Shown here one piece after another: positions 45,980 to 61,354 of a stretch of DNA of 64,000 nucleotides. The translations under genes and the position numbers were made by a program. The stretch covers positions 1-64,000 of the forward strand of contig JAFDWN010000024.1 of NCBI GenBank assembly GCA_018268465.1, given 5' to 3'. The DNA comes from Actinomycetota bacterium (GTDB lineage Bacteria > Actinomycetota > Actinomycetes > Mycobacteriales > Mycobacteriaceae). Under the pieces are notes generated by a model. The model was not told the origin of the DNA, did no database searches, and saw only the letters and a program-made list of their open reading frames with translations. Numbering within the stretch: position 1 is the first letter of the stretch; the number at the start of each line of letters is the position of its first letter.

Positions 45980-46055
45980 GCCCTGCCGGGCGGTCCGCCC
46001 GTCGGATCGGGCACCGGATCACGCGTCGCCGCCGGGCGTGTTCTGTACTTGAGCG

Positions 46056-46514
46056 ATGACGCTGTATTTCGAGGACTTCTCCCCCGGACAGGAATTCCAG
46101 ACCCAGGCCAGGACCATCACCGAGGCCGACGTGGTGTCGTTCGCGGCCTGGAGCTGGGATACCAACCCGGTCCACACCGATGCCGAATCGAGCCGGCACG
46201 GCCGATTCGGTCAGCGAATCGGCCACGGACTGCTGGGTTTGTCGGTGGCGATGGGGCTCGCGGCGCGGCTGGGCGTGTTCGAGGGCAGCTCGATCGCACT
46301 GCTCGACGTCGCCGAATGGCGTTTCGTCGCACCGATTCTCATCGGCGACACCGTGCACTGCCGGGTCGAGATTCTGCACACCCGGTTGACCAGCAAGGGC
46401 GACGCGGGCATCCTCGACCGCCGGTTCACCCTCGTCAACCAGCACGGAGACACGGTGCAGGAGGGCCGGATCGGGTTGATGGTGGCGCTCAGTGCGGCCA
46501 CCGCTCCGCGGTGA
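46056..46514 (+). CDS. MaoC-like hotdog-fold dehydratase
   Basis: This 152-residue protein has the (R)-hydratase motif: FAAWSWDTNPVHTDAESSRHGRFGQRIGHGLLGLSVAMGL, with the catalytic Asp-x4-His pattern (D35 and H40 by position). It probably hydrates enoyl-CoA in beta-oxidation or related lipid metabolism. It is downstream of the IclR gene by 76 bases on the same strand and may be co-expressed. Confidence 0.9.
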   Translation: MTLYFEDFSPGQEFQTQARTITEADVVSFAAWSWDTNPVHTDAESSRHGRFGQRIGHGLLGLSVAMGLAARLGVFEGSSIALLDVAEWRFVAPILIGDTVHCRVEILHTRLTSKGDAGILDRRFTLVNQHGDTVQEGRIGLMVALSAATAPR

Positions 46515-46587
46515 TGTGCCGCTGCCGCGACGCCGACGGGCTGCTCAGCCCATTGCGCCGGCAGTCGGCTGTCCGGGTGGCGCGGGA

Positions 46588-47271
46588 CTAGGCGGGTGCG
46601 GGATCGTCGCGGCCGTCGACGGCCACCCGATCGGCCGCCTCCGGCCATGGTGCCGCCCCGGGACGGGGAAAGCCCGCCGCGCCGCCCGACCGCAGGTACA
46701 GCTCTTCGGCCTCGTCGAGGTCCTTGATCATCTCCAGCGCGAGTTCCCGTTCGGCCGCGTAGTAGCGCGCGGCCCAGCGGATAGCCAGGCGGGGGTAGGC
46801 CCACGCGTCGAGCGCCTCGGCACCGTGAGCGTCGCGCGCGGCGTCGCGTTCCATCTTCTCGGCGAACGCGACGTGTTCGCGCAGGAGCTCCTTGAGTCGC
46901 GCGGCGTCGGTCAGATGCCCGAAAGCCACCCGGAGCAGGACGCTGTGTTTGAGCACCGGCGGGTCGGCGGGCGCGCCGGTGGCCCACCCGCGAACGGCTT
47001 CCAAGCCCTTCCCGGTGATCTTGTACAGCCGGCGGCTGCGGGCGGTGTTGTCGTGGTCCAACCGCGACGTCACCAGCCCGAGGCGTTCGAGTTTCTTCAG
47101 CTCGGTGTAGATCTGGCTGAACGACGGGCTCCAGTAGAAGTACCGGATGCTTCGCCCGGTCACCTTCTTGATGTCGTAGCCGGAGAGCTCCTCTTCGTAG
47201 GACAGGATGGCCAGGATCGCCCAGCTCGTCGCGGCCAGAGGCGACGCACCCGGCCGATCGCTCGCGTCCAT
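46588..47271 (-). CDS. PadR-family transcriptional regulator
   Basis: This 227-residue protein has the N-terminal PadR winged helix: TSWAILAILSYEEELSGYDIKKVTG, then WSPSFSQIYTELKKLERLGLVTSRL. A C-terminal helical Vir domain (LKELLREHVAFAEKMERDA) should dimerise. There is no obvious ribosome binding site before the ATG at 47269-47271. The likely target is not evident; the upstream gap contains the large hairpin at 47346. Confidence 0.9.
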   Translation of the reverse strand: MDASDRPGASPLAATSWAILAILSYEEELSGYDIKKVTGRSIRYFYWSPSFSQIYTELKKLERLGLVTSRLDHDNTARSRRLYKITGKGLEAVRGWATGAPADPPVLKHSVLLRVAFGHLTDAARLKELLREHVAFAEKMERDAARDAHGAEALDAWAYPRLAIRWAARYYAAERELALEMIKDLDEAEELYLRSGGAAGFPRPGAAPWPEAADRVAVDGRDDPAPA

Positions 47272-47345
47272 TTCGGGAGCCTAACAACACAGGTCAGAGC
47301 TGCCGCCGATACTCACCACTGGCCGGGAACCTCTGTCCTAATCCG

Positions 47346-47402
47346 CGAGATCAGACTTACGGCACGTGTTTCCCTCGCGCGCGTGCCGTAAGTCTGATCT
47401 CG
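47346..47402. repeat. 57-bp perfect long inverted repeat (21-bp arms)
   Basis: Arms 47346-47366 and 47382-47402 are exact complements (core AGATCAGACTTACGGCACG) around a 15-base loop. The repeat runs up to the stop codon of the aldo/keto reductase gene. No T-tract follows, so it is either a factor-assisted terminator, an mRNA 3' stabiliser, or a dispersed palindromic repeat element. The perfect, non-GC-only arms are unlike ordinary mycobacterial hairpins. Confidence 0.85.
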
Positions 47403-48260
47403 TCACGCCTCGGCGATGGCCTTGAAGTCCTCGTCGCTGAGTTCGACGCCGGCGCCGGCGATGTTGTCCTCCAGGTGGGCCACCGACGAGGTGCCCGGAA
47501 TCGGCAGCATGACGGGCGAGCGCTTGAGCAGCCACGCCAGGGCGAGCTGCGACGGGCTGTGTCCGGTCCGCTCCGAGATCGCCGCGAGCGGTCCTCCCGG
47601 CTGCGACAGGGCACCGGTGGCCAGGGGGAACCACGGGATGAACCCGATACTCTGCCCGGCGGAGAAGTCCAGCACATCCTCGGCGTTGCGGTTGGTGACG
47701 TTGTAGAGGTTCTGCACCGTCACGATGTCGGCGACCTGCTGAGCGGCCTCGATCTGGGCGACGGTCACCTCGGACAGGCCGATATGGCGGATCTTGCCTT
47801 CGTCCTGAAGCTTCTTGAGTTCACCGACCTGGTCCTCCAGCGGGACCTCCGGATCGACGCGGTGCAGCTGGAACAGGTCGATGCGATCCACACCCAGGTT
47901 GCGCAGGCTCAGCTCGGCCTGCTGGCGCAGGTAGGCGGGCCTGCCGACGGGCGTCCACAGGTCGGGGCCCTGCCGGGTGAGCCCCGCTTTGGTCGCGATG
48001 ACCAGGTCGTCGGGATAGGGATGCAGCGCCTCCCGAATGAGCTGTTCGGCGACCACCGGACCGTACGAGTCCGCCGTGTCGATGAAGTTGACGCCGAGTT
48101 CGACCGCGCGCCGCAGAACGCGTACGGCTTCGGCTGGGTCGGCGGGGTCGCCCCAGACGCCCTTGCCCGTCAGCCGCATGGAGCCGAAGCCCAGCCGGTT
48201 GACCGTGAGATCGCCGCCGATGGTGAAGCTGCCGGATGCGGCAGCCGTGGATGTGGCCAT
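47403..48260 (-). CDS. Aldo/keto reductase
   Basis: This 285-residue TIM-barrel NADPH enzyme has the catalytic tetrad recognisable as Asp and Tyr in [11 protein letters not shown], Lys in LVIATKAGL and His in LFQLHRVD. The C-terminal cofactor loop is [25 protein letters not shown]. It reduces aldehydes or ketones of unknown identity. AAGGAGG lies a few bases before the ATG. The hairpin at 47346 directly follows its stop. Confidence 0.92.
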
Positions 48261-48782
48261 GATGCCTCCTTACACCGAGGCAAACTGAACGACCAGTTCC
48301 CCGTATTCCCCGCGGCGCAGAGCGTCGATCCCACGCCGATCGGACGTCGCTGATCGCCGTGTCCGGCGCCCGGCCGATCGAACGCGTCAGGGGCCGGGAT
48401 CATCGGTGCCCGACAATGCCCTGAAATCCGTTGACTACCAGCTTTTTTGATCGAGTTGACGCCGATGGGCGGACACCGCGCACCGTCACGTGTGACGCAT
48501 GACACGACAAAGATCGGATCGGTGCCACCCTGCCGTGAGCTATGCTTTCCCTCAGATTGGACTGTCGATGACCGACACCAATACGTCGTGGACGCTTCCC
48601 TCATCCTCGGCGGCGCCAGCCCAGCGCGTAGCTGCCGCCGACTTCAGGTGAACAGTGCACCAGCACCAGCTAGACCGCGGCGAACGATATTGCCCGCCGG
48701 CAATCTCGCCACCTCGTGCTGTGGGCTGCCGTCCGACGCGGTCGCCACCCGGCACGCCAATGCCTGAAAGGCACTCCGAAAT
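48261..48782. other. 522-base gap with possible leader and two short ORFs before rhlE
   Basis: No standard gene is visible. On the plus strand a weak promoter-like TATGCT (48541-48546) precedes a 27-codon ORF (48568-48651, MTDTNTSWTLPSSSAAPAQR...). Its stop overlaps by four bases (GTGA) a 39-codon ORF (48648-48767) ending 15 bases before the helicase start. These may be upstream ORFs in a long rhlE leader. The left part carries the AKR ribosome binding site and promoter on the minus strand; nothing else is recognised. Confidence 0.45.
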
Positions 48783-50126
48783 ATGGCTTCCGACAACTCT
48801 TTTGCCGATCTGGGCGTACCGGGACCGCTGGTCCACGCGCTCGCCGAGCAAGGCATCACCGCACCTTTCCCCATCCAGGTCGAAACCCTGCCCGACACCC
48901 TGGCCGGCCGCGACGTACTCGGCCGTGGCAAGACTGGCAGCGGTAAGACACTGGCCTTCTCGCTTCCGCTGGTCAGCCGCCTGCGCGAGCACCGCGCCGG
49001 GCGAGCCCGCCCGGCAGGTCTGGTGCTCGCACCCACCCGGGAACTGGCGACGCAGATCACCGCGACGCTGCAACCGCTGGCGGACGCCTGCGGTCTGCGG
49101 GTCACCACGATCTTCGGCGGCGTTCCGCAAGCCCGGCAGGTCCGCGCGCTGGAGTCCGGCGTCGACATCGTCGTGGCCTGCCCGGGCCGGTTGGAAGATC
49201 TCATGCGGCAGGGGCTGATCAGCCTCGACCGTGTCGAGGTCACGGTGATCGACGAGGCCGACCACATGGCCGACCTCGGCTTCCTGCCCGGGGTGACCAG
49301 GATCCTGGCCGCCACCCCCGCGGGTGGACAGCGCCTGCTGTTCTCGGCGACGCTCGACAACGGGGTGGACAAGCTGGTCAAGCGCTTCCTGCGCGACTCG
49401 GTGATGCATTCCGTCGACCAGGCGAACTCCCCGGTCGCGCAGATGACCCATCACGTCTTCCACGTCGCGGGCGCCGAGGTCAAGAAGGAATTGGTAGAGC
49501 GACTCGCGTCGGGCACCGGGCGTCGCATCCTGTTCATGCGCACCAAACACCAGGCACGCAAACTGGCCAAGCAGCTGACCGAATCGGGGATCCCGTCGGT
49601 CGACCTGCACGGCAACCTGTCCCAACCTGCGCGTGATCGCAACCTCGCGGCGTTCGCCGCCGGACACGCCCGGGTCCTGGTGGCCACCGACATCGCCGCG
49701 CGCGGTGTGCACGTCGACGACGTCGAACTCGTGGTGCATATCGATCCGCCCGCCGAACACAAGGCCTACCTGCATCGATCCGGCCGTACCGCGCGGGCGG
49801 GCAGCGCCGGAGACGTCGTCACCGTCGTGCTGCCCGAACAGCGCAAGGACACCCAGGGCCTGTTGCGCCGCGCCGGCATCGCGGTGGCACCCCAGCAGGT
49901 GACCGCCGACTCCGACGTGGTCACGGCGCTGGTGGGTGAGATCGCTCCGTACCGGGCACCCGAGCCCAAGCCCGTGGTGGCGCCCAGGCAGGCACCGCAC
50001 GGCGGCGGCTCGGGGCGTCCGGGGCGTCAGCGCGGTCCGCGCAGCGGCGGTCAGTCGTCGTCGGAGCGCGGTCACAACCCCGCGCGCCGGCGCGGTTCGT
50101 CGCGTCCGCGGCGTACCACAACCTGA
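48783..50126 (+). CDS. rhlE: DEAD-box RNA helicase RhlE
   Basis: This 447-residue helicase has Q-motif PFPIQ, motif I GRGKTGSGKT (47-56), Ia PTRELA, II DEAD (157-160), III SAT (188-190) and VI HRSGRTARAG. The tail (about 400-447) is Arg/Gly/Ser rich (GGGSGRPGRQRGPRSGGQ) and probably binds RNA. It remodels RNA in ribosome assembly or degradosome-related decay, often in the cold. The long leader upstream suggests post-transcriptional control. Motif I has GRGK where most members have AQ, a variant seen in actinobacterial RhlE as far as I recall. Confidence 0.93.
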   Translation: MASDNSFADLGVPGPLVHALAEQGITAPFPIQVETLPDTLAGRDVLGRGKTGSGKTLAFSLPLVSRLREHRAGRARPAGLVLAPTRELATQITATLQPLADACGLRVTTIFGGVPQARQVRALESGVDIVVACPGRLEDLMRQGLISLDRVEVTVIDEADHMADLGFLPGVTRILAATPAGGQRLLFSATLDNGVDKLVKRFLRDSVMHSVDQANSPVAQMTHHVFHVAGAEVKKELVERLASGTGRRILFMRTKHQARKLAKQLTESGIPSVDLHGNLSQPARDRNLAAFAAGHARVLVATDIAARGVHVDDVELVVHIDPPAEHKAYLHRSGRTARAGSAGDVVTVVLPEQRKDTQGLLRRAGIAVAPQQVTADSDVVTALVGEIAPYRAPEPKPVVAPRQAPHGGGSGRPGRQRGPRSGGQSSSERGHNPARRRGSSRPRRTTT

Positions 50127-50157
50127 TCCCCCGGCCCGCCGACGCGGCTGCGACCGG

Positions 50158-50718
50158 CTATCGGAGGGGGCGGCGTGCCAACAGCCAGGCCTGGCCGTCG
50201 CCCTCACCGCAGGCGATCACGTCGAGATCGCCGAATGCCGCGGGCAACTCGCCGGGTTCGGCCCGGTAGGCGCCCGAAACCGCGCCGACGCGGCTCAGAG
50301 CGGCGATCGCCAGCAGTCCGCCCGGCGCCAGCCGCCGCATGATCGGGCCGTCCAGACGACGGTCCCGGAATAGGTGGCACAGCACGACGTCGACCGGGGG
50401 GCCGCCGGGCAGTCCCCCGTCGAGGTCGACGACCGAGAATCGGCACCGGTCACCGACCCCGCTGCGGCGGGCCAGGTCCCGCGCCCGGCCGATCGCCACC
50501 GGGGACACGTCGACACCCCAGACCCGCATCCCGCGACCCGCGAGCCACACGGCGCCCTCACCCTGCCCGCAGGCGAGATCCAGCGCGTGCCCGGCGGCCG
50601 GAAAGGCGTCGGCGAACGCTGCGAACGTCACGGGCGGGGCCGACGGGGGCAGGTCCGTCACCGCCGGGACGCGGACGGTGTACTTCTCGTCCCAGCGGAT
50701 CCGGTCGTCGTCGCTCAC
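50158..50718 (-). CDS. SAM-dependent class I methyltransferase (TehB/UbiE-like)
   Basis: This 186-residue protein has SAM motif I HALDLACGQGEGAVWLAGRG, motif II WGVDVSPVAIGRARDLA, and a post-motif PVDVVLCHLFRDRRL. It is short, close to the minimal Rossmann fold, with no extra substrate domain. It starts nine bases after the ATP-grasp gene on the same strand, which makes it the distal gene of the signalling operon. It might modify the product of that ligase. The substrate is unknown. Confidence 0.88.
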   Translation of the reverse strand: MSDDDRIRWDEKYTVRVPAVTDLPPSAPPVTFAAFADAFPAAGHALDLACGQGEGAVWLAGRGMRVWGVDVSPVAIGRARDLARRSGVGDRCRFSVVDLDGGLPGGPPVDVVLCHLFRDRRLDGPIMRRLAPGGLLAIAALSRVGAVSGAYRAEPGELPAAFGDLDVIACGEGDGQAWLLARRPLR

Positions 50719-50727
50719 CCGCGCACC

Positions 50728-52314
50728 CTACGAAACGGGTAGCGGTATCGCCGCCAGCGACTCCCTGGCCTCGGCGAGCAGCGCAGACTGCGCGCGGTCG
50801 TAGAAGTCCTGGGCGCTGGCGGGGCTGTCGCCGATCGCCGTCATCCCGACGCGACCGCATTCGGTGATCGAGCTGATCATGTGGAACACCACGCCTTGTT
50901 GCCGCGACTGGTCGAAGTGCAGCCCGGCGCGGGCGACGAAGTCGAACAGGTCCGCGACCCGCATGCCGCGCAGCGCGGGGTCCTCCAGGTGGTCGGTGGC
51001 CACGAGATGGCGCTGCGCGCCCGACGGCGTGACGAAGCGGGCCTGTCCGTGTTCGTAGACACCGTCGGTGAGGAACTGCAGAGTCAGGAACGGGTGGGTG
51101 GTGCCGCCCTTGCGGAGATTGACCTCGATGGCGTGCGCCTCCCACTCCTCGCCGTGACGCACAACGACGAAGTCGAGTGCGAACCTGCCGAGCACACCTT
51201 TGCCGGCGAGGACGCGGCCGACGGCCTCGGCGGATCGGGTGATGGTCGTCGCGTATGCGGGGTCGGCGGGGAATCGTGCCCCGAGGTAGACCTGTCCACT
51301 CGGCCCGCCGAGGATCTGGTCGTGCGTCGAGAGGATCTCCAGCTCACCGGTCGGGGTCACCCGCATCTGGACGCTGGGACTGCGCACCTCGTCGCCGACG
51401 ATCCGCTCCTCGACGATGCCGCCGCGCGCGTCGAGACGGTCGAGATAGGCGGTGAGAGTGATCTTCTGGCTCTCCAGCTGCATGGAACGCACCCGCTGCT
51501 CGATACGTTCGCGCAGGGCGCCCGGGCCCTCGTCGACACCCCTGAGGTCGACCAGCGCGTTGCCCGATCCCGATGCGCCTTCGTTGAGTTTGACCATCGC
51601 CCACTCGGCGCGCGGGCGCTGCCCGTGCAGTTCGGTCAGGGCGTCGACGACGTCGGACACGCTGTGCAGGTCCTCCGATCCCGCGGGGTAGAGCACGCCG
51701 GCCTCGCCGAACAGGGTGCGGCAGCCGGTCTTGGTGCCCAGGTCGAACAGCCGCGGATCGGCCGCGTACATCGGGATGCCCAACACCAGCGACAGGTCGC
51801 GTTCCCGTGTCGTGCTGTTGTAGGGGATGAGGTGACAGCGGCCGGTGTCGGGGATGTGGGACACGATCTCGGCCAGCACCCTGGGTCGGGCAAGCAGCTT
51901 GTCGGTGAGCGATTCTGGCATCGAATCCCCCACCGCGACAAGGGAAAGCCGCGATCTGGCATGGCTGGGGATGACGCCGGGCAGCAGCGAGAGATAGTAC
52001 TCGATGATCTGCGGGTCGACGGGCATCGAGGTGACGTACACCATCCGCAGCTTGGGCTGGCGCAACAGCAGCAACAGGAACAGCAGACGTTCTTCCATGG
52101 CCTGGTTCATCGCGCCGGCGGCCGGGCCGAGGCGGTCGATACTCATCGACGGCACGACGACCACCGACTCCCCGGGTTCGTCGCGGCGCATCAGGTTCCA
52201 CACCGGCGCCAGGCTTTCCTGCAGCCTGTCGAACGCGGCGTAGCGGGCCCCTTCGTCGAGATCGGCAAGCCGCACCCGCTGTGTCGAATCCTGTTGCTGC
52301 GCAGTAGTGGTCAT
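50728..52314 (-). CDS. ATP-grasp peptide/carboxylate-amine ligase, PGM1-related
   Basis: This 528-residue protein has ATP-grasp elements: WAMVKLNEGASGSGNALVDL (nucleotide-binding Lys and Gly-rich loop), VQMRVTPTGELEILSTHDQIL, and LDFVVVRHGEEWEAHAIEVNLRKGGTTHPF with the metal-binding Glu-x-Asn. The overall layout and the NLRKGGTTHP signature match the PGM1-type peptide ligases known from pheganomycin biosynthesis. It should join a carboxylate to an amine through an acyl-phosphate. Its ATG overlaps the cyclase gene by four bases, so it is made together with three signalling proteins. No peptide precursor or biosynthetic cluster lies nearby. Confidence 0.85.
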   Translation of the reverse strand: MTTTAQQQDSTQRVRLADLDEGARYAAFDRLQESLAPVWNLMRRDEPGESVVVVPSMSIDRLGPAAGAMNQAMEERLLFLLLLLRQPKLRMVYVTSMPVDPQIIEYYLSLLPGVIPSHARSRLSLVAVGDSMPESLTDKLLARPRVLAEIVSHIPDTGRCHLIPYNSTTRERDLSLVLGIPMYAADPRLFDLGTKTGCRTLFGEAGVLYPAGSEDLHSVSDVVDALTELHGQRPRAEWAMVKLNEGASGSGNALVDLRGVDEGPGALRERIEQRVRSMQLESQKITLTAYLDRLDARGGIVEERIVGDEVRSPSVQMRVTPTGELEILSTHDQILGGPSGQVYLGARFPADPAYATTITRSAEAVGRVLAGKGVLGRFALDFVVVRHGEEWEAHAIEVNLRKGGTTHPFLTLQFLTDGVYEHGQARFVTPSGAQRHLVATDHLEDPALRGMRVADLFDFVARAGLHFDQSRQQGVVFHMISSITECGRVGMTAIGDSPASAQDFYDRAQSALLAEARESLAAIPLPVS

Positions 52315-53492
52315 GACCCCTCCTCGTGATTCTGTCGGCCGATCACCTCGTGGACGTCGACGGGCCGCGCGAGCCCGCGCAGCTCGATGGCTCCGAGCGG
52401 GCGGGTGGTGTAGCGCTCGCCCAGCGCGCTTCGCACCCGCGGACTGATGAGCACCTGCCCGGGCAGGGCGACCGAACACAGCCGCGCGGCCAGATTGGTC
52501 ACGGTGCCGATCGCCGCGTAATCCCAGCGGCCCTCGAAGCCGATGCGTCCGAGCGTCGCGTAGCCCTGAGCGATGCCGACCCCGAACCCGAGTTCGTGGC
52601 CGCGGCCCCGCCAGGTGTGCGACAGGGCCGCGACCCGCTCCCGCATCTCCAGCGCCATCCGCACGGCGCGGTCCGGGGCGTCGGGGCACGGGGCCGGATC
52701 GTTGAAGAAGACCATCAGGCCGTCCCCTTCGAAGTGTTCCAGGGTGCCCTCGTAGGCGAAGACGAGTTCGCCGAGTACGGCGTGGTACTGGTGCAGCACC
52801 GACATCGTCTCCTCGGGCTCGGTCGTCTCGGCGAACGCCGTGAAACCCCGCAGGTCGGTGAACACCGTGGTGATCTCGCGGCGGTGACTCTCCAGGAACG
52901 ATTCGTCGCCGGACTCCACGATCGGCCCCGCGATCTGCGGCGCCAGGAACCGCCGCAACCGGCCCAGTCGCTCCAGGTCGGCCACTTGCGCGGCGATGCG
53001 CGTCTCCAGTTCGGCGTTCCAGCGTTCCAGCGCGGCCGCCTGTTCGACGACGGTGTCGTGCAGCCGCTTGACGCGGGCCAGCGAGCGCACCCGCGCCAGC
53101 AGTTCGGCCTGGTCGAACGGTTTGGTGATGAATTCGTCGGCGCCCACCTCGAGGGCGCGCAGGCGCTGCTGGGCGCCGCTGGCGGTGACCATGACGACCG
53201 GCAGCATCGCGGTGCGCTCGTCGGATTTGATCCTGGCGCACGTCTGGTAGCCGTCGAGACCGGGCATGAGGATGTCGAGCAGCACCACGTCGACCTCGGT
53301 CTCGGAGAGGATCTGCAGGGCCTGTTCGCCCGAGGTCGCCGACAGCACGGTGAAGCCTCGGGGCTCCAGTACGGCGTACATCAGTTTCACGTTCTGGGCG
53401 AGGTCGTCGACGACGAGCACCCGCACCCCCGTCAGCGGCGGTGTCATCGCGCCCGGAACCTTGTCGGCCTTCTGGGCCGCCGGCTCGGTCAT
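52311..53492 (-). CDS. Response regulator fused to class III adenylate/guanylate cyclase
   Basis: In this 393-residue protein the receiver domain (about 22-140) has phospho-acceptor Asp73 and TKPF. A coiled-coil linker (about 145-180) follows, then a CHD cyclase domain (about 200-390) with metal-binding Asp213 (FTDLRGFTAF) and Asp257 (HFEGDGLMVFF), and the Asn/Arg of TNLAARL. The Lys that usually reads adenine is replaced by His253, so product specificity is open. Phosphorylation by the kinase two genes upstream probably controls cyclic nucleotide output. It overlaps both neighbours by four bases. Confidence 0.92.
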   Translation of the reverse strand: MTEPAAQKADKVPGAMTPPLTGVRVLVVDDLAQNVKLMYAVLEPRGFTVLSATSGEQALQILSETEVDVVLLDILMPGLDGYQTCARIKSDERTAMLPVVMVTASGAQQRLRALEVGADEFITKPFDQAELLARVRSLARVKRLHDTVVEQAAALERWNAELETRIAAQVADLERLGRLRRFLAPQIAGPIVESGDESFLESHRREITTVFTDLRGFTAFAETTEPEETMSVLHQYHAVLGELVFAYEGTLEHFEGDGLMVFFNDPAPCPDAPDRAVRMALEMRERVAALSHTWRGRGHELGFGVGIAQGYATLGRIGFEGRWDYAAIGTVTNLAARLCSVALPGQVLISPRVRSALGERYTTRPLGAIELRGLARPVDVHEVIGRQNHEEGS

Positions 53493-53878
53493 CTCGTCTC
53501 GCCGTCGCCGCGCAGGTGCTCACGCACCTGGGTCGGGAAATCGCGGACGCTGATCGGCTTCTCGAGGTAACCGTCGAAGCCCGACGATAGGACGCGCTCG
53601 CGGTCCTGGGCCATGGCGAACGCGGTCAGGGCGACGACGGGGATGGAGACCGTGTCGTCGTGGCGGCGGATCCGCTCCAGCGCCTCGTATCCGTCGATCC
53701 CTGGCAACTGCAGATCCATGAGGATGACGTCGGGCTGTGCACTGATTGCCAGGTCGACCGCGTCCTCGCCCGAGGCGGCCACGGCGACACCGAATCCCGC
53801 GTGTTCGAGGACGTCGCGGGCGAGTTTGAGATTGCGGGGGTTGTCCTCGACGAGCAGCACCAGCGGCCGGCGGCTCAT
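53489..53878 (-). CDS. Single-domain response regulator (DivK/CheY-like)
   Basis: This 129-residue protein is only a receiver: acidic pocket VEDNPRN, phospho-acceptor Asp55 (ILMDLQLPGIDGYEAL), Thr in ALTAF and Lys in YLEKPIS. Without an output domain it probably shuttles phosphoryl groups or docks on the kinase. It overlaps the kinase gene and the cyclase gene by four bases each, so the three proteins form one relay. Confidence 0.93.
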   Translation of the reverse strand: MSRRPLVLLVEDNPRNLKLARDVLEHAGFGVAVAASGEDAVDLAISAQPDVILMDLQLPGIDGYEALERIRRHDDTVSIPVVALTAFAMAQDRERVLSSGFDGYLEKPISVRDFPTQVREHLRGDGETR

Positions 53879-56526
53879 GTCACGGCTCCGTCCCGGCCCG
53901 CGACGTCGGCCAGCCGCCGCGCCAGCGTCGCGAGGTCGAGCCCCGCCTTTTCCGCGACGAACGCGATGCGCCCTTCGAGCCGTCCCCGATCCTCCTGGGT
54001 GAGCGACTTTCCGGTGAGCACGACGATCGGCGGACCGCTCGACGACGCATCCGAGCGCAGCTCGTCGATGACGGCGAACCCGTCGACCTCGGGCATGAGC
54101 AGGTCCATGATTACGACGGAGGGGGCGACGGTGCGCACGACGTCGGCCGCCGTGCGGCCCGTCGAGCAGGTGTGCACGGTCCAGCCGAGCGGTTCGAGGG
54201 TGCTGCGGACCAGTTTGAGCGCCATGGGGTCGTCATCGACCACGACGAGGGTGCGCGCCTGCCCGCCTTCGCCCGTACGGTGCGTGAGCCGTGACACCGC
54301 GGTCAGGAGATGCTCGCCGCGCACCGGTTTGACGAGGTATTCGGCGGCGCCGAGGGAGAATCCGCGGCCCCGGCCCGGTTCCACGCTCACCACGATCACC
54401 GGCACCGCGGCGGTGGCCGGGTCGGCTTTGAGTGCCGCCAGGACGTCCCAGCCGGTGATGCCGGGGAGGTTGATGTCGAGGATGACCGCGGCCGGCGCGG
54501 AGGCGCGGACCGCCTCAAGGCCGGCCTCGCCGGAGCCGACACCGACCACCCGCAGACCCGCGGTGTGCAGATGCAGCTCGATCAGTTCGGCCGAGCGGGG
54601 GTCGTCCTCGATGACGACGATGGTCGGCTGGCCGGCGTTCCCGTGCTCGAGGTCGCGCGTCCTTGGCGCACCGATAGCGGTGAAGTCGTTGCGCGCCTGC
54701 GGAATCGAGAATCCGAATGTGCTGCCCGCGCCGGGTGCGCTGTGTACCCACAACGTCCCGCCGTGCAACTCGACGATCCGCTTGCTCAGGGTCAGGCCGA
54801 GCCCGGTGCCCTCGGCCGTCGACGGCAAACGCCCGCCCTGCTGGAAGGAGTCGAAGATGCGCTGCTGGTCTTCGGGGGCGATGCCGATTCCGGTGTCGGC
54901 GACGGTGACCACCAGGTCGTCGTCCTCCCACGTCGCGCGGACCGTCACCGAACCACCCCGGAGGGTGAACTTGACGGCGTTGCTCAACAGGTTGACCACG
55001 ACCTGCTTGAGCCGGAGTTCGTCGGCGGTGATCCATCCCAGGCCGTCGCCGGTGTCCACGCTCATCCGCAGATCCTGGGCGGCGGCACGCTCACGCAGCA
55101 GCGACATCGCCTGATGCAGGATGTCGCGGAGCGGGAAGGTCGTCCGGTCGAGTTCCATGCGGCCCGCCTCGATCTTCGACAGGTCGAGGATGTCGGCCAG
55201 CAGGGCCAGGAGATGGCTTCCGGCGGCGTGGATGTCGTGCAGGTACTCCTCCTGCTTGTCGTTGATTTCCCCGAACATCCGTTCCAGCAGCACCTCGGAG
55301 AAGCCGATCACCGCATTGAGCGGTGTCCTGAGTTCGTGGGACATATTCGCGAGGAATTCGGATTTGTGCCTGCTGGCCTGGGCGAGTGCGGCGCTCTGCT
55401 GTTCGAGTTCCTGGTAGAGCCGGGCGTTGGTCAGCGCCACCGCCGACTGGTTGGCGAACGCGGCGAGCATCTCACACGTCTCGTCGCTGAACGATCCCGT
55501 GGACATGCGGCGCACGACCAGCGCACCCAGCACCCGGTCGGGGCGCACCAGCGGGATCGCGACCAGCGAGCGCCATCCGGCCCGGTGCAACACCTCCAGA
55601 TGCGGGTCGCGTTCGGCGGCGCCGAGGTCGGCGAGCTGCAACACGGTGCCTGTCCGCGCGGCCCGGCCCATCCACGAGGTGTCGATGTGGATGTCGGCGG
55701 CTCGCAGGCCCGCGGTGACCTCGTCGCTGGTTCCGTACACCGCGCGCACCCGGAACAGCCCGGTGGCGTCCTCGTATTCGAACAGCGAGCCGCCGTCGGT
55801 TTCGGACAGTTCGACGGCGTGGGACATGATCGTCGTGAACACCTCGTCCGGCACGAGGGTCGAGCTGATGGCGGCACCGACTTCGGCGAGGGCTTCGAGC
55901 TGGTCGACCTTGCGGCTCAGCTCGGCCGAACGGTTCTCCAGTGCGGAGAACAGTTCGACGTGGCGCAGCGCGAGCGCCGCCTGCTCGGCGAACGTGACGA
56001 GCAGGCGCTCGGCCGCCGCGTCGAACGGGTCGACTTCGTTGCGCCACACCGACAGTGAGCCCACCACCTGGTCGCCGACCATCATCGGTGCGCCCATCAT
56101 CGAGCGGTAACCGCCCACCCGCTGGAAATCCGAGCGGCCGTATTCCGGATCGGCCAGGACGTCGGGGATGTGCTGAATCGTGCGGTCGATGGTGACCCGC
56201 CCCACGAGCGTGGCCCGATCGCGGTTGATCGGGTGCTGTTCGACGAATTCGCGGAACGCGGGCGACAGCCCGCTGGACCGGGCCAGCACGTAGGAATCGC
56301 CGCGTAGGAGGTGGATCTGCGCGACGGCGGCACCGAGGAGCACCCGGGCGTTGTCGACGACGGCGTCGAACACCTGGTCCTGCTCGGCGGTGCCGCTGGT
56401 GAGAACCTTCAGGATGTCGCTGGTGGCCCGGAACTGCTCCTGGGCCTGGGTGAGGCGGGTCTCGAGGGCCTCCCTCGTTGCGGCGTCGTCACCGCCCATG
56501 CCGCCGGCCATCCCGAACCCGACCAT
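53875..56526 (-). CDS. Hybrid sensor histidine kinase: GAF-GAF-HisKA-HATPase-REC-REC
   Basis: This 883-residue soluble kinase has GAF domains at about 45-190 and 215-370 as sensors. HisKA (388-455) contains His397 in FLANMSHELRTP, and HATPase_c (500-610) has NLLSNAVKF, DTGIGIAPED and GTGLGLTLSKRI. Two receivers follow (635-745, Asp684; 757-870, Asp808). The second receiver has EKAG in place of the usual Lys-Pro. It has no membrane helix, so it senses a cytosolic cue. It heads the overlapping operon with two regulators and the ATP-grasp ligase. Confidence 0.94.
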   Translation of the reverse strand: MVGFGMAGGMGGDDAATREALETRLTQAQEQFRATSDILKVLTSGTAEQDQVFDAVVDNARVLLGAAVAQIHLLRGDSYVLARSSGLSPAFREFVEQHPINRDRATLVGRVTIDRTIQHIPDVLADPEYGRSDFQRVGGYRSMMGAPMMVGDQVVGSLSVWRNEVDPFDAAAERLLVTFAEQAALALRHVELFSALENRSAELSRKVDQLEALAEVGAAISSTLVPDEVFTTIMSHAVELSETDGGSLFEYEDATGLFRVRAVYGTSDEVTAGLRAADIHIDTSWMGRAARTGTVLQLADLGAAERDPHLEVLHRAGWRSLVAIPLVRPDRVLGALVVRRMSTGSFSDETCEMLAAFANQSAVALTNARLYQELEQQSAALAQASRHKSEFLANMSHELRTPLNAVIGFSEVLLERMFGEINDKQEEYLHDIHAAGSHLLALLADILDLSKIEAGRMELDRTTFPLRDILHQAMSLLRERAAAQDLRMSVDTGDGLGWITADELRLKQVVVNLLSNAVKFTLRGGSVTVRATWEDDDLVVTVADTGIGIAPEDQQRIFDSFQQGGRLPSTAEGTGLGLTLSKRIVELHGGTLWVHSAPGAGSTFGFSIPQARNDFTAIGAPRTRDLEHGNAGQPTIVVIEDDPRSAELIELHLHTAGLRVVGVGSGEAGLEAVRASAPAAVILDINLPGITGWDVLAALKADPATAAVPVIVVSVEPGRGRGFSLGAAEYLVKPVRGEHLLTAVSRLTHRTGEGGQARTLVVVDDDPMALKLVRSTLEPLGWTVHTCSTGRTAADVVRTVAPSVVIMDLLMPEVDGFAVIDELRSDASSSGPPIVVLTGKSLTQEDRGRLEGRIAFVAEKAGLDLATLARRLADVAGRDGAVT

Positions 56527-56810
56527 GCGAGTCCCCCATCACCCTCCGGACGCTGGGTGCGCCCCCTGAGCAGTGTCCACCAGTCTGCGCCCGGGTGCGT
56601 TCGAATTCGCGCAACTGCCACGGCCGTGGAGCGGATGTGTCGCCTCGCCGCTGTCGGGTGCGTCACACCGAAGTACGTGCGATTACAAGGATTTTCCCGG
56701 GCGCGGTGGCGAATGCAGCACCGAGTTGTGCTGCGAGCGCGCCCATCTGGTCCGCTGCGACGGACCGATCGCTGGCATGGCCGATGACCGGCGCCGGTGG
56801 GCCAGTCACC

Positions 56811-58568
56811 TCATGGCCGCATCGCGTAGGCGCCGTCGTAGGCCCGGACACGTTCCCACACCCGGTCGAAGCGCCCGGCGTCGGCCACCGGTTTGCGGAT
56901 CGCACCGAGCGCCCAGTCCTGCTGCGCACGAGTCGAACTCGGTTTGCCGTGTAAGGCGACAGCGTAAGTGTTGAAGTCGCGGATCTGGAAGTCGAAGATC
57001 TGATCGACGACGTCGACGCCCGATCCGGAGGCGAGCCCGGTCAACGCCGCCTCTTCGAGGATCAGCTGCCCGTAGACGATCAACGAGAACAGGTGCCCGA
57101 TGTCGAGCAGGAAGTCCAGATCCTTGAGCTGGTCGGCGTCGGGGCCGGCGGTGGCGAGCAGCGTGGTGAACGCCTGCGCCTGTTCGTAGAAGCGCGCCAC
57201 GTTGGGGATGGCGGCGAACTTCTCGTAGACCGGCCGCCAGTCGGCGAACTGGACCTTCCCCGCGCCTCGGGTCGGGCCCTGGTTCCAGAAGAAAGTGTCG
57301 TCGGCGGGATCGTCGCGGACGGGGACCTCCGCATAGGCACGCGGGTTGAACAGGTAGTTCGGCATGAATTTGAGGACGAGGCCGACGTTGACGTGGACGG
57401 TGCCCTCCAGTCGCGGCAGTGTCCCGATGAGCTGGGCGACCTCGCGGAACATCGTGTCCTTCTCGTAGCCCTTGGCGGCGATCACGTCGTGCAGCAGCCG
57501 CAGCACGGTCTCACCCTCCATCGTGACCTTGGCCTTGGTCATCGGGTTGAACAGCAGGTAGCGCCGGTCGTCGAGGCCGGCGCTGCGGAAATAGTCCACG
57601 GCGCGGCGGCTGAACGACCGCATGGCCACCAGGCGTGTGTACGCGTCGACGAAATGGGATCGTACGTGGGCGAAGTCGGTGACCGGGTTGCCGTACAGGA
57701 TCCTGTTCTGGGCGTGGGTGATGGCCTCGTAGAACGCGTGTTCGGCCATTCCGATCGACGCCGAACACAGGTTGAACTTCCCGACATTCACCGTATTCAA
57801 TGCTGCGGCAAAGGCTTCCACACCGGTGTGCAGGATGTCCTCGCGTCGCACCGGATAGTTGTCGAGGCGGAAGGTGCTGACGTAGATCTGCATGTGCACG
57901 ACGTTGTCGATCAGGTGGTAGTTCTCGTGCCCGCTGTCGGCGACGAAGAACACGTACGCGTCCTCGTCCTCGACGCCGGCGCGGCGGCCGAACACCGAAA
58001 CCATGCTCGCCACGTTGCCGTTGCCGATGTAGTACTTCTCCCCCGACGCCCGGTAGAGGATGCCGTTGGCGCGATCCTCCTCGCCGGCGGGGGCCAGAAC
58101 CATGTCGGTGCGATAGACGTCGGCGCCGTGTTCACGTTCGGACAGCCCGAACGCCATGACGTGGCCGGCGTCGAGGTCGTCCGCGGCGCGCCGTTTGGCC
58201 TCGGCGTTGCCGCTCTGCCAGACCGGACCCAGGCCGAGGATGGTGACTTGCTCGGTGTACCAGTAAGTCAGCCCGTAGAACCCCAGGATCTCGGCCAGCG
58301 CGGCGTTTCGCGCGGCATCCCAGCGTTTGTCGGCGTCGCCGTCGGCGAATTCGGACGGTGTCAGGAACGTGGCGAACAACTTCTCCCGCTTGACGAACTC
58401 CACGAAGTCGGCGGGCCAGCCCGCCGCCAGGTCGTCGTCGAGCAGCCGCTTCTTACCCCGGCTCTCGAACCAGTCGATCGTCGCCCGCAGCATCCGCCGT
58501 GTCGCGGCGTCGAACTGCTCCGGGTCATAGGAGTTGGGGTCGAAGAGCAAGCCGTCCGTCTGCGTCAT
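56811..58568 (-). CDS. Acyl-CoA dehydrogenase family protein
   Basis: This 585-residue flavoenzyme is longer than the standard 380-residue ACADs. The central FAD/substrate segment (AFGLSEREHGADVYRTDMVLAPAG, ASGEKYYIGNGNVASMVSVFGRR) and the helical C-terminal domain with NVGKFNLCSASIGMAEHAFYEAITHAQNRI are clear. A C-terminal extension of about 150 residues follows. A catalytic Glu could not be assigned with certainty. The ATG at 58566-58568 gives a normal N-terminus. It would oxidise an acyl-CoA of unknown chain, perhaps lipids delivered by the Mce system. Confidence 0.9.
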   Translation of the reverse strand: MTQTDGLLFDPNSYDPEQFDAATRRMLRATIDWFESRGKKRLLDDDLAAGWPADFVEFVKREKLFATFLTPSEFADGDADKRWDAARNAALAEILGFYGLTYWYTEQVTILGLGPVWQSGNAEAKRRAADDLDAGHVMAFGLSEREHGADVYRTDMVLAPAGEEDRANGILYRASGEKYYIGNGNVASMVSVFGRRAGVEDEDAYVFFVADSGHENYHLIDNVVHMQIYVSTFRLDNYPVRREDILHTGVEAFAAALNTVNVGKFNLCSASIGMAEHAFYEAITHAQNRILYGNPVTDFAHVRSHFVDAYTRLVAMRSFSRRAVDYFRSAGLDDRRYLLFNPMTKAKVTMEGETVLRLLHDVIAAKGYEKDTMFREVAQLIGTLPRLEGTVHVNVGLVLKFMPNYLFNPRAYAEVPVRDDPADDTFFWNQGPTRGAGKVQFADWRPVYEKFAAIPNVARFYEQAQAFTTLLATAGPDADQLKDLDFLLDIGHLFSLIVYGQLILEEAALTGLASGSGVDVVDQIFDFQIRDFNTYAVALHGKPSSTRAQQDWALGAIRKPVADAGRFDRVWERVRAYDGAYAMRP

Positions 58569-58835
58569 GCCACCTGCATACCTCCGGCGGGTGGAAATCG
58601 ACACCGAACTCCCGAAATCGGGGTGCCGGCCGGGCATATGCGCACCGGTGGCCGGTCGACCGACCATCGACTGGCGGGCCGCACAGGATCGCCCGACGAC
58701 CGCGGTCGGCGCGCACCTCGTCGCCGCCGCCGGCAGCGGCCATGACATTTAGCTGTACGCACCGGCGCTCGTCGTCAGACAGCTGACGTCGTCGCCGACG
58801 TTCGCGCCGGGTGACGGCCACCCGGCCCGTCGCCG

Positions 58836-59030
58836 TCAGTGCGCCGGGGCGGCCTGCTCGGGTTTGAGAAGACCTTCCAGCGCCGTGCGCAGCTCCGCCG
58901 AATCGGCATGGCCGTGCGACGAAACTGCGTGTGCGACTGCGGCTTTGAGCACCTCGTCGTGTTCACCGGCGATGGTCAGAGTGCAGTTGATCTCATTGGG
59001 CTGGTCACGGCAATCCACGACATAGCGCAT
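58836..59030 (-). CDS. DUF1059 small protein
   Basis: This 64-residue protein begins MRYVVDCRDQPNEINCTLTIAGEHDEVLKAAVAHAVSSHGH, the DUF1059 pattern of a Cys-containing beta strand pair followed by a helix. GGAGG lies eight bases before the ATG at 59028-59030, which settles this start over much longer in-frame options. The function of the family is unknown; it resembles a small stress-associated protein. Confidence 0.88.
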   Translation of the reverse strand: MRYVVDCRDQPNEINCTLTIAGEHDEVLKAAVAHAVSSHGHADSAELRTALEGLLKPEQAAPAH

Positions 59031-59229
59031 GATGCGGCCCTCCTTTGTGGTGTGGTGATTGTCCCGCGCGCCGCGGTGCACCGCGGCGTTTCGGCACACC
59101 GGAGCCCGTTCGCCGCCGCGGCACGCAAGGAGCGTCGTTTGAGCTGATCGGCCGTGGGCGCGATGCCGCGGCAATATCATCGGTCGTGCGACGGCCCCGG
59201 TGCACGGCGGTCGCGTGTATCTGAGGTGG

Positions 59230-60492
59230 GTGATCACCACGGCACGGTTCGGCCTCCTGCGAGGGATCCCGCACGGCCCAGTACGGCGCAGGTCCAGAAT
59301 CGCCGCCATCGCGGCGGTGTGCGGGCTGATGGCCTCCTGTGCGGCGGCGCCGCACACCGCGCCCGCGCCGCCGCCCCCGGTCGACGGCCAGGTGACCCCT
59401 CTGCTCGACCGCACGTTGTCTGCCCCGCGGTGGTTCACCGGCACCGACGGTGAGGTTCACCTGGTCTACGAGCTGATGCTCACCAACGTCGCACCGGCGG
59501 CGGTCACCCTCAGCGCGGTGGAGGTGCGCGATGCCGATTCGGATACCACGCTGATTCGCCTGACCGATGACGCCCTTCGGGCGGCGACCTCGCTCGCGGC
59601 GGCACCGGACACACCGACCACACTGATGCCGTCGTCATCGGTCGGCGTCGTGTGGCTCGACATCCCGCTGGGCGCCGCGGCCGTACCCACCGCGGTCACC
59701 CATCGGCTGACCATCGATCCCCCGGCCGGGCTGGCGGCGTCGGAGATCGCACTGACGTTCGGCGGCATGCCGGTGGACGTGGACCAACGGCCGCCGGTCA
59801 CCATCGGTGCGCCATTGGCGGGCCAGGAGTGGGTAGCGCTCGGCAGCTGCTGTGACGGCCCGCACCGCCGCGCACCGTATCCGATCGACGGGCGGTGGTA
59901 TCTGGCCCAGCGGTTCGCGATCGACTTCAATCAGCTCGACGCCCAGCACCGTCCCGGTGTCGGTGACCCGCTGTCGCCCAGCAGTTTCCCCACCTTCGGC
60001 CAGCCCGTCTACGCGGTCGCCGACGGTACCGTCGTCGCAGCAGTGGACGGCAATCCGGATCTTCGGGTCAACGAGGCCCGCGAAGAGCCGACGCCGGCCA
60101 ACGCCGGGGGAAATCGGGTGGTGATCGACATCGGCGACGGGCGCTTCGCCGTCTACGCCCACCTGCACCGGGACAGCATCTCGGTGCGGGAGGGCGATCG
60201 GGTGACGCGCGGACTGCACATCGCCGATGTGGGCAGCTCCGGCACCTCGGGCGGGCCCCATCTGCACTTCCAGGTGACCGACCAACCCTCCGTCGTCCGC
60301 GCTGACGGACTGCCCTATGCGTTCGACACGTTCGAACTCACCGGCCAGACCCCGCCCCTGGCCGAGATGTTGCGTTACTACGACACGCTGGATCCCATTC
60401 CCATCAGTACCGGCAACAGCGGGCCGCGGCATGGAGAACTGCCGCTCTCACGCGATGTCGTGACCTTTCCTGCCCGGCAAGGCGGGCAGTAG
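59230..60492 (+). CDS. Lipoprotein M23-family peptidase, possibly degenerate
   Basis: This protein has about 420 residues. A hydrophobic stretch ends in the lipobox-like MASC (Cys37), giving a predicted lipoprotein. A beta-sandwich domain follows, then an M23 LytM domain at about 220-350 with VVIDIGDGRFAVYAHLHRDS and SSGTSGGPHLHFQV (His344, His346). The first zinc-ligand position in the HxxxD motif is Arg (RFAID, Arg228). The GTG at 59230 with GAGG upstream is preferred; a GTG at 59200 is the alternative. It may act on or bind peptidoglycan. Confidence 0.83.
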   Translation: MITTARFGLLRGIPHGPVRRRSRIAAIAAVCGLMASCAAAPHTAPAPPPPVDGQVTPLLDRTLSAPRWFTGTDGEVHLVYELMLTNVAPAAVTLSAVEVRDADSDTTLIRLTDDALRAATSLAAAPDTPTTLMPSSSVGVVWLDIPLGAAAVPTAVTHRLTIDPPAGLAASEIALTFGGMPVDVDQRPPVTIGAPLAGQEWVALGSCCDGPHRRAPYPIDGRWYLAQRFAIDFNQLDAQHRPGVGDPLSPSSFPTFGQPVYAVADGTVVAAVDGNPDLRVNEAREEPTPANAGGNRVVIDIGDGRFAVYAHLHRDSISVREGDRVTRGLHIADVGSSGTSGGPHLHFQVTDQPSVVRADGLPYAFDTFELTGQTPPLAEMLRYYDTLDPIPISTGNSGPRHGELPLSRDVVTFPARQGGQ

Positions 60493-60499
60493 GACCTCG

Positions 60500-61354
60500 T
60501 CAGTCCTGGCGCGCGACGATCACGGGTGTGGAACTGCCCTGGGTGACGGCGGCGCTGACCGAACCGAGCAGCTTTCCCGTCAGTTCGCCGTGGCCGCGGG
60601 TGCCCACGACCACGAGTTGCGCGGATGCCGCCTCCTGGAGCAGATGGTGTGCGGGCCGGTCGGCAACCACCACGCGACGCACGCGAACGTCGGGATAGCG
60701 TTCCTGCCATCCGGCCAGGCGCTCGGCCAGGGCCTCGGCCGCCTCCGACTCGGGCTGTTCCCGACCGCCGTCACGGCAGGCATGTACCGCCACCAATTCG
60801 ACGCCGCGCCAAGAGGCTTCGTCGAATGCGGTCGCGGTGGCCAGTTCCGACGCGGGTGAGCCGTCGACACCCAACACGACCGGGGCGTCCGGGGGCGGCA
60901 ACTCGTCATGGATGACCGCGACCGGGCAATGCGCGTGATGAATCATTGCTGTGCTGAGCGAGCCGAACGACAGCCCCGGCAGCACCGACTCACCACGCCG
61001 CCCTACCACGATCAACCGCGCCTGATCGGACAGGCCGAGGAAGGTGGCCACGGGCGCGCCGGTGACGACCTTGGTTTCGATCTGTACGCCCGCGACGGCG
61101 TCGTTGGCCGCCTTGGCGGCTTCGTCCATCAGGCGGTGGGCGTGATCCTGTTGCGCGCGTAGTACTTCCGACGGTCCGGGTCCGGCCCAGCTGATCAACG
61201 ACGGACCGGGCGCCTCCGGGGAGACGGCATGCACAATGGTCAATCCGGTAGTGCGCATCGCCGCTTCGTGTGCGGCCCAGCGCACCGCCGAGGCAGCGGC
61301 CGCCGATCCGTCGTACCCCACCACAATGCTGAAATGGGCTGATAGATTGGGCAT
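60500..61354 (-). CDS. Tandem-domain universal stress protein
   Basis: This 284-residue protein has two USP domains (about 6-142 and 152-282). The first has GYDGSAAAASAVRWAAHEA and VVGRRGES...GSLS; the second has VDGSPASELATATAF and VVGTRGHGELTGKLLGSVSAAV, each with the G2xG9xGS ATP-binding pattern. The AAAGGAG ribosome binding site five bases before the ATG settles the start. It probably binds ATP during hypoxia or other stress, as mycobacterial USP homologues do. Confidence 0.93.
   Translation of the reverse strand: MPNLSAHFSIVVGYDGSAAAASAVRWAAHEAAMRTTGLTIVHAVSPEAPGPSLISWAGPGPSEVLRAQQDHAHRLMDEAAKAANDAVAGVQIETKVVTGAPVATFLGLSDQARLIVVGRRGESVLPGLSFGSLSTAMIHHAHCPVAVIHDELPPPDAPVVLGVDGSPASELATATAFDEASWRGVELVAVHACRDGGREQPESEAAEALAERLAGWQERYPDVRVRRVVVADRPAHHLLQEAASAQLVVVGTRGHGELTGKLLGSVSAAVTQGSSTPVIVARQD

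Follow-up and report, generated by a model that had tools for sequence, protein, structure and literature searches.

In this study, we analyzed a cluster of signaling genes that ends in a gene for a putative peptide ligase. It lies in a stretch of 64,000 nucleotides (nt), here called the window, which comprises positions 1 to 64,000 of contig JAFDWN010000024.1 (assembly GCA_018268465.1) from an actinobacterium of the family Mycobacteriaceae. The following genes were found at the locus:

53875..56526, minus strand: GAF-GAF hybrid histidine kinase (HK), 883 amino acids (aa), with His397 and receivers with Asp684 and Asp808
53489..53878, minus strand: lone receiver, 129 aa, with Asp55; 4-nt overlap with HK
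52311..53492, minus strand: receiver-cyclase, a receiver (Asp73) and a class III nucleotide cyclase in one chain
50728..52314, minus strand: ATP-grasp ligase of the PGM1/BesA/IQCH type, 528 aa; 4-nt overlap with the cyclase gene
50158..50718, minus strand: methyltransferase, a resident gene outside the cassette; start 9 nt past the ligase stop

A sequence-only reading of this DNA had proposed a five-gene operon in which the first four genes are linked by 4-nt overlaps and the methyltransferase follows 9 nt behind the ligase. The coordinates agree with an overlap of 4 nt at each of the three junctions (HK/receiver, receiver/receiver-cyclase and receiver-cyclase/ligase), and the spacing of the methyltransferase is correct. 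Also, each of the Asp residues named in that reading lies in a DxxxP motif: Asp684 and Asp808 in the kinase, Asp55 in the lone receiver and Asp73 in the receiver-cyclase. The proposed unit held for the four coupled genes and not for the methyltransferase, a resident neighbor. Judged by gene order and sequence comparison, the unit is a four-gene cassette of kinase, lone receiver, receiver-cyclase and ligase, and this arrangement is far beyond chance.

Comparison with other genomes indicates that relay, cyclase and ligase are genuinely coupled and that this arrangement is conserved. The ligase search gave 14 named loci (L004-L017), 12 of the Intrasporangiaceae type and two from other phyla (L015, L016). 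By tblastn, 11 of the former, all but Pedococcus (L013), have kinase, receiver and cyclase genes upstream of the ligase. The three genes were not upstream of the ligase in L015 and L016, the latter of which begins inside the ligase with its upstream side unseen. Within the genus of the window, a ligase match occurs in 14 of 248 genomes: the window genome itself, 12 with 57–60% identity and one with 29%. A separate cyclase search (E 1e-60) returned exactly 13 of these, namely the window genome and the 12 with the 57–60% ligase. Twelve of the 13, the window genome included, have cyclase and ligase next to each other; in the thirteenth, G057, the two genes are located at contig ends. Among 119 genomes of the Intrasporangiaceae-type family (that of G346), the ligase was matched in 15, with at least 60% identity in 12. 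A full-length cyclase lies beside the ligase in 11 of these 12, again except for Pedococcus (G688), and G667 has a partial cyclase match and no ligase match. Six family genomes appear to coincide with named loci, so that counts by locus are not additive. Rare adjacency of ligase and cyclase had been named as the finding on which functional coupling would fail; within this close clade (13/248 genomes of the genus, 11/12 of the family) the two genes were regularly found together. The 22 adjacent cyclase-ligase pairs have 18–162 nt between matched ends, and Fisher tests of co-occurrence, with relatedness ignored, gave 6e-22 and 1e-14. In 24 of 29 loci, the ligase has a possible start that would give an overlap of exactly 4 nt with the end of the cyclase gene; for this survey the start nearest to that spacing was taken, so it shows a possible coupling and not the start actually used. 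In one locus (L063), kinase and receivers have been lost and GAF-GAF is fused directly to the cyclase, with the cyclase-ligase coupling kept. Since the coupling survives the loss of the kinase, cyclase and ligase look like the core of the cassette.

For the history of the cassette, maximum-likelihood trees were calculated from 39 ligase, 29 cyclase and 29 kinase rows, excluding rows below 200 bits, among them the 29% ligase of L072. In all three trees the window copy lies inside the Intrasporangiaceae clade, the smallest well-supported sets containing it having 11 (ligase), 12 (cyclase) and 12 (kinase) rows, and the other carriers of the genus that are in the trees are placed elsewhere, away from it. 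As the three trees agree on this placement, the phylogenies indicate that the cassette has moved horizontally, and as a block. Another contig of the window genome carries a PknG-PP2C-VWA-FHA-kinase cluster (L130:4300-9431), with no cyclase or ligase match within the 20 kb read. Together with MCE proteins, this cluster suggests that the host belongs to Mycobacterium in the wide sense.

As a member of the cassette, the methyltransferase was rejected. It had no match in 59 ligase-bearing loci (tblastn, E 1e-4) and none above 60 bits in L004-L017 (tblastn), and its relatives (55–63%) occur in six loci of the genus, all from genomes without a ligase match. In L123, which has no cassette, the methyltransferase directly adjoins the same DEAD helicase gene as flanks the window copy, and the flanking helicase and an acyl-CoA gene are present in relatives, among the matches listed in a DNA search of 25 genomes. 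Because it is found in cassette-free loci of the genus and is absent from the cassette loci scanned, it is regarded as a resident gene of the genus.

The kinase contains two GAF, one HisKA, one HATPase_c and two Response_reg domains (Pfam), and the phospho-acceptor box SHELRTP is present in 28 of 29 aligned kinase rows including the window, the exception being the kinase-less L063. In five mycobacteria-like kinases (L061, L062, L066, L068 and L069), the C-terminal receivers have Glu where the alignment places the phospho-acceptor Asp. The lone receiver (Response_reg, 1.4e-28) had no close separate match in eight mycobacteria-like loci (L060-L064, L066, L070, L071) and is therefore considered optional. 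Upstream of the set, PknG is encoded in 7 of the 12 genus loci with a 57–60% ligase, standing by itself in L070. In L060, PP2C/VWA/FHA genes extend to the contig start; thus, PknG and/or PP2C-VWA-FHA precede the set in 8 of 12. L068 has FHA only, L065 and L069 have none of these genes, and L067 is cut off. The PknG-PP2C-VWA-FHA cluster stands directly before the GAF-GAF kinase in L061, L062, L064, L066 and L071 and before the GAF-cyclase in L063, where a gene for a family 3 solute-binding protein is located two genes ahead of PknG.

The receiver-cyclase combines a receiver and a Guanylate_cyc domain (Pfam). In class III cyclases, two Asp residues bind metal ions, and Asn and Arg stabilize the transition state. 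These residues are present in 29 of 29 rows, in the window as Asp213, Asp257, Asn333 and Arg337. At the two positions that we take to be the adenine-selecting Lys and Thr sites of CyaC, the window has His253 and Ala326; across the 29 rows, the Lys position is occupied by His 16 times and by Arg 13 times, unlike class IIIb enzymes, and the Thr position is Ala, Ser or Thr. Since some class III cyclases without these base-selecting residues are active, the alterations are compatible with more than one nucleotide. The nearest solved chains include CyaB (3r5g, 6.7e-34) and CyaC (1wc0, 2.1e-19). CyaC-type proteins are built as receiver-kinase-receiver-cyclase; the cassette follows the same relay logic and its catalytic domain aligns with 1wc0, but CyaC holds the relay in one chain, whereas the cassette distributes it over three genes, has His and Ala instead of Lys and Thr, and has a ligase appended. 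The cyclase also matches PycC profiles (best 9.4e-19). An anti-phage (Pycsar) reading was rejected: there was no PADLOC match for the ligase and no effector of the PycTIR or PycTM type among the five proteins scanned, and the matches to adenylate cyclases are better.

The ligase is the sole non-signaling enzyme of the cassette. Its description as PGM1-like in the sequence-only reading was borne out, as it belongs with the PGM1/BesA peptide ligases by its Pfam domains (ATP-grasp_IQCH, 2.5e-20, 73.4 bits, cut-off 27; PGM1_C, 2e-11, 43.6 bits, cut-off 22.5) and by alignment of residues 47–514 with the BesA chain 8yi6 (4.3e-32), the one solved structure to which sequence comparison gave a convincing match. 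Its score for NCBIfam BesA (NF042917), 121.7 bits, is below the equivalog threshold of 750, so it does not count as a BesA equivalog. The candidate catalytic residues Lys242, Glu302, Asp381, Glu397 and Asn399 have counterparts in 8yi6, and Glu302, Asp381, Glu397, Asn399 and Arg401 are invariant in 15 ligase rows; the presumed ATP/Mg residues are intact, with roles assigned by analogy. BesA, an L-propargylglycine--L-glutamate ligase, is reportedly part of an antimetabolite pathway; the cassette ligase is instead partnered with signaling genes. It shares the PGM1_C domain with PGM1, the peptide ligase of pheganomycin according to the part of PMC8939145 consulted, in which adenylate cyclases are also mentioned near another ATP-grasp branch.

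Beside the window ligase, no precursor peptide or tailoring genes were recognised, small open reading frames not having been searched exhaustively. On this ground, and by analogy, the ligase probably links common amino acids to one another or attaches an amino acid to a protein of the cell, in the way of RimK under cyclic di-GMP (c-di-GMP). RimK belongs to a different ATP-grasp family from the cassette ligase. As an ATP-grasp amino-acid ligase under cyclic-nucleotide control, it is by analogy the nearest precedent in the section of PMC4741518 used, where RimK of Pseudomonas is described as bound and stimulated by c-di-GMP, with its activity also raised by partner proteins. RimABK, as far as covered there, uses c-di-GMP as messenger and has a phosphodiesterase in RimA, whereas the cassette has a class III cyclase; a RimABK system with RimA phosphodiesterase and RimB was not recognised, the Pfam content of the cassette including no phosphodiesterase.

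In all 11 named Intrasporangiaceae cassettes (L004-L012, L014, L017), two genes come after the ligase: first one for an undescribed 62–69 aa protein, encoded on the opposite strand, and next one for a protein with a cyclic nucleoside monophosphate (cNMP)-binding domain. With six further distinct genomes, the cNMP-binding (CRP-type) gene and the small protein accompany 16 of 17 cassettes, G725 being the exception, with the small protein missing and a cNMP match only about 6 kb off. The CRP-type gene of L010 encodes cNMP_binding (3.8e-22) and HTH_Crp_2 (8.8e-15) domains; the small protein of L010 has no Pfam family. The small proteins show the motifs HHHP, WxWxCxCGGASxR and AL.HSA.I (for example L011:11595-11789, minus strand). 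Paralogues lie near genes for alanine dehydrogenase and ATP-dependent DNA ligase (L155 by Pfam; L153 and L156 by sequence likeness), in L156 also near universal stress genes. An alanine dehydrogenase gene is also the neighbor of the lone Pedococcus ligase, which is divergent from it (L013:8698-11533). A conserved, near-palindromic 20-nt element lies close to where the CRP-type gene starts (L004 11882, L012 11917, L017 11938), matching at 18 or more of 20 positions in 10 of the 11 named loci and in L165, and not in Knoellia L014, L162 or L167. A CRP box shared across the cassette was rejected, as no second match above 16/20 occurred among the best five per locus; the best in 46001-61000 of the window was 15.

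In the phylum as a whole, a ligase match occurs in 51 of 396 genomes. Loci were examined for 40 of the 50 other genomes with a match, the remaining ten being mostly fragments, and five of the loci (L086, L095, L098, L103, L105) offer under 1 kb of upstream sequence. The neighbors of distant ligases (arginase and DNA polymerase III alpha; an Alpha-E/circularly permuted ATP-grasp cluster; NADH dehydrogenase genes, judged by eye) do not point to a single function. The 29% ligase of the genus is divergent from a gene for a major facilitator superfamily protein that carries a cNMP-binding domain; a Ser/Thr kinase gene comes next (L072:9062-14273). A plasmid search gave six distant matches, of which five loci were examined; match H5 is presumably the S. 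cattleya BesA locus.

From these data, we infer a mobile four-gene signaling cassette in which a relay-switched cyclase sets the activity of a co-transcribed ligase, a reading to which we assign a probability of about 0.5. In this scheme, the GAF domains would perceive a small ligand or a redox signal and thereby start His-Asp transfer, the phosphorylated receiver would switch the cyclase, and the resulting cyclic mononucleotide and/or protein contact would determine how active the ligase is, both enzymes being translated from one mRNA. The CRP-type regulator beside the Intrasporangiaceae cassettes may read the same messenger. A bolder version, in which the relay-driven cyclase, with base-selecting residues that differ from the usual ones, produces a cyclic mononucleotide (perhaps one other than cyclic AMP) that directly gates the co-translated ligase and leads to an amino-acid amide or peptide messenger or a protein tag, would be a new type of control and is unlikely as a whole. 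Among the papers listed in searches of the open-licence PubMed Central literature, including searches aimed at such a cassette, none described a cyclase-ligase cassette in its title or abstract opening.

Several observations weigh against the relay-controlled ligase. The genomes in the co-occurrence counts are related and hence not independent. Of the phylum's ligase loci examined, only G346 and one of two G276 loci carry the cyclase, and the more distant ones show none, though some of their contigs end less than 1 kb upstream; a cyclase match (1e-50) is present in 10 of 281 genomes of the phylum, of which G345 and G366 have kinase-receiver-cyclase sets (53% cyclase) and no ligase match, and in Pedococcus (L013/L160) the ligase is solitary, without a relay. 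Both the small protein and cNMP-binding domains are absent from the window, and ahead of the kinase no copy was found of the element that lies close to the CRP start. In favor of the relay-controlled ligase, cNMP-binding genes abut three distant ligases (L015 from Gemmataceae, L072 and L079), yet this adjacency is statistically weak, with three of four matches adjacent in 48 distant loci (rough P 0.016; the hidden Markov model was seeded with two of these three loci) and the match in L089 not adjacent to the ligase. The distribution thus indicates that the partnership is a property of one clade and not a rule for the ligase or relay family; because related relay sets occur without the ligase, the relay looks older than the partnership.

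The separate occurrence of relay and ligase would also suit an ordinary stress phosphorelay-cyclase that merely shares its transcript with a metabolic ligase. Near-perfect co-occurrence and adjacency down to 57% identity, together with block transfer, argue against such chance company, which we consider improbable. The co-inheritance of kinase, cyclase and ligase in the three trees would equally fit a ligase upstream of the relay, making a small amide or dipeptide that is sensed by the GAF domains, with the cyclase relay (and CRP where present) as the response. GAF domains commonly bind small molecules, and the genes that precede the set in 8 of 12 mycobacteria-like carriers include PknG, which is reportedly controlled via GlnH/GlnX (PMC9769921, PMC6069109). 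This order of events is doubtful, as L063 has no kinase and yet keeps cyclase and ligase coupled, and no exporter is encoded among the four genes. The ligase might instead modify proteins in the manner of RimK (PMC4741518, in the section used), with the adjacent 62–69 aa protein as candidate substrate in Intrasporangiaceae. The C-terminus of this protein is near-invariant (HSASIxP/HSATIAA) in 11 of 11 named cassettes. Strong relatives, however, occur in genomes without a ligase match (G679, G744), and no match was found in the window genome (15 of 203 candidates scored) or in the mycobacteria-like loci. As an obligatory substrate the small protein was therefore rejected, and a protein-modifying ligase of this kind seems rather improbable.

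Peptide ligases with this fold are familiar from pathways of the antibiotic type; here, one is placed under a two-component relay and a cyclase. Thereby, an orphan ligase family gains a testable input, and the GAF-cyclase and ligase of L063 represent a natural shortened form for dissection. The conserved mobile cassette suggests that peptide ligation serves bacteria as a regulated signaling output.

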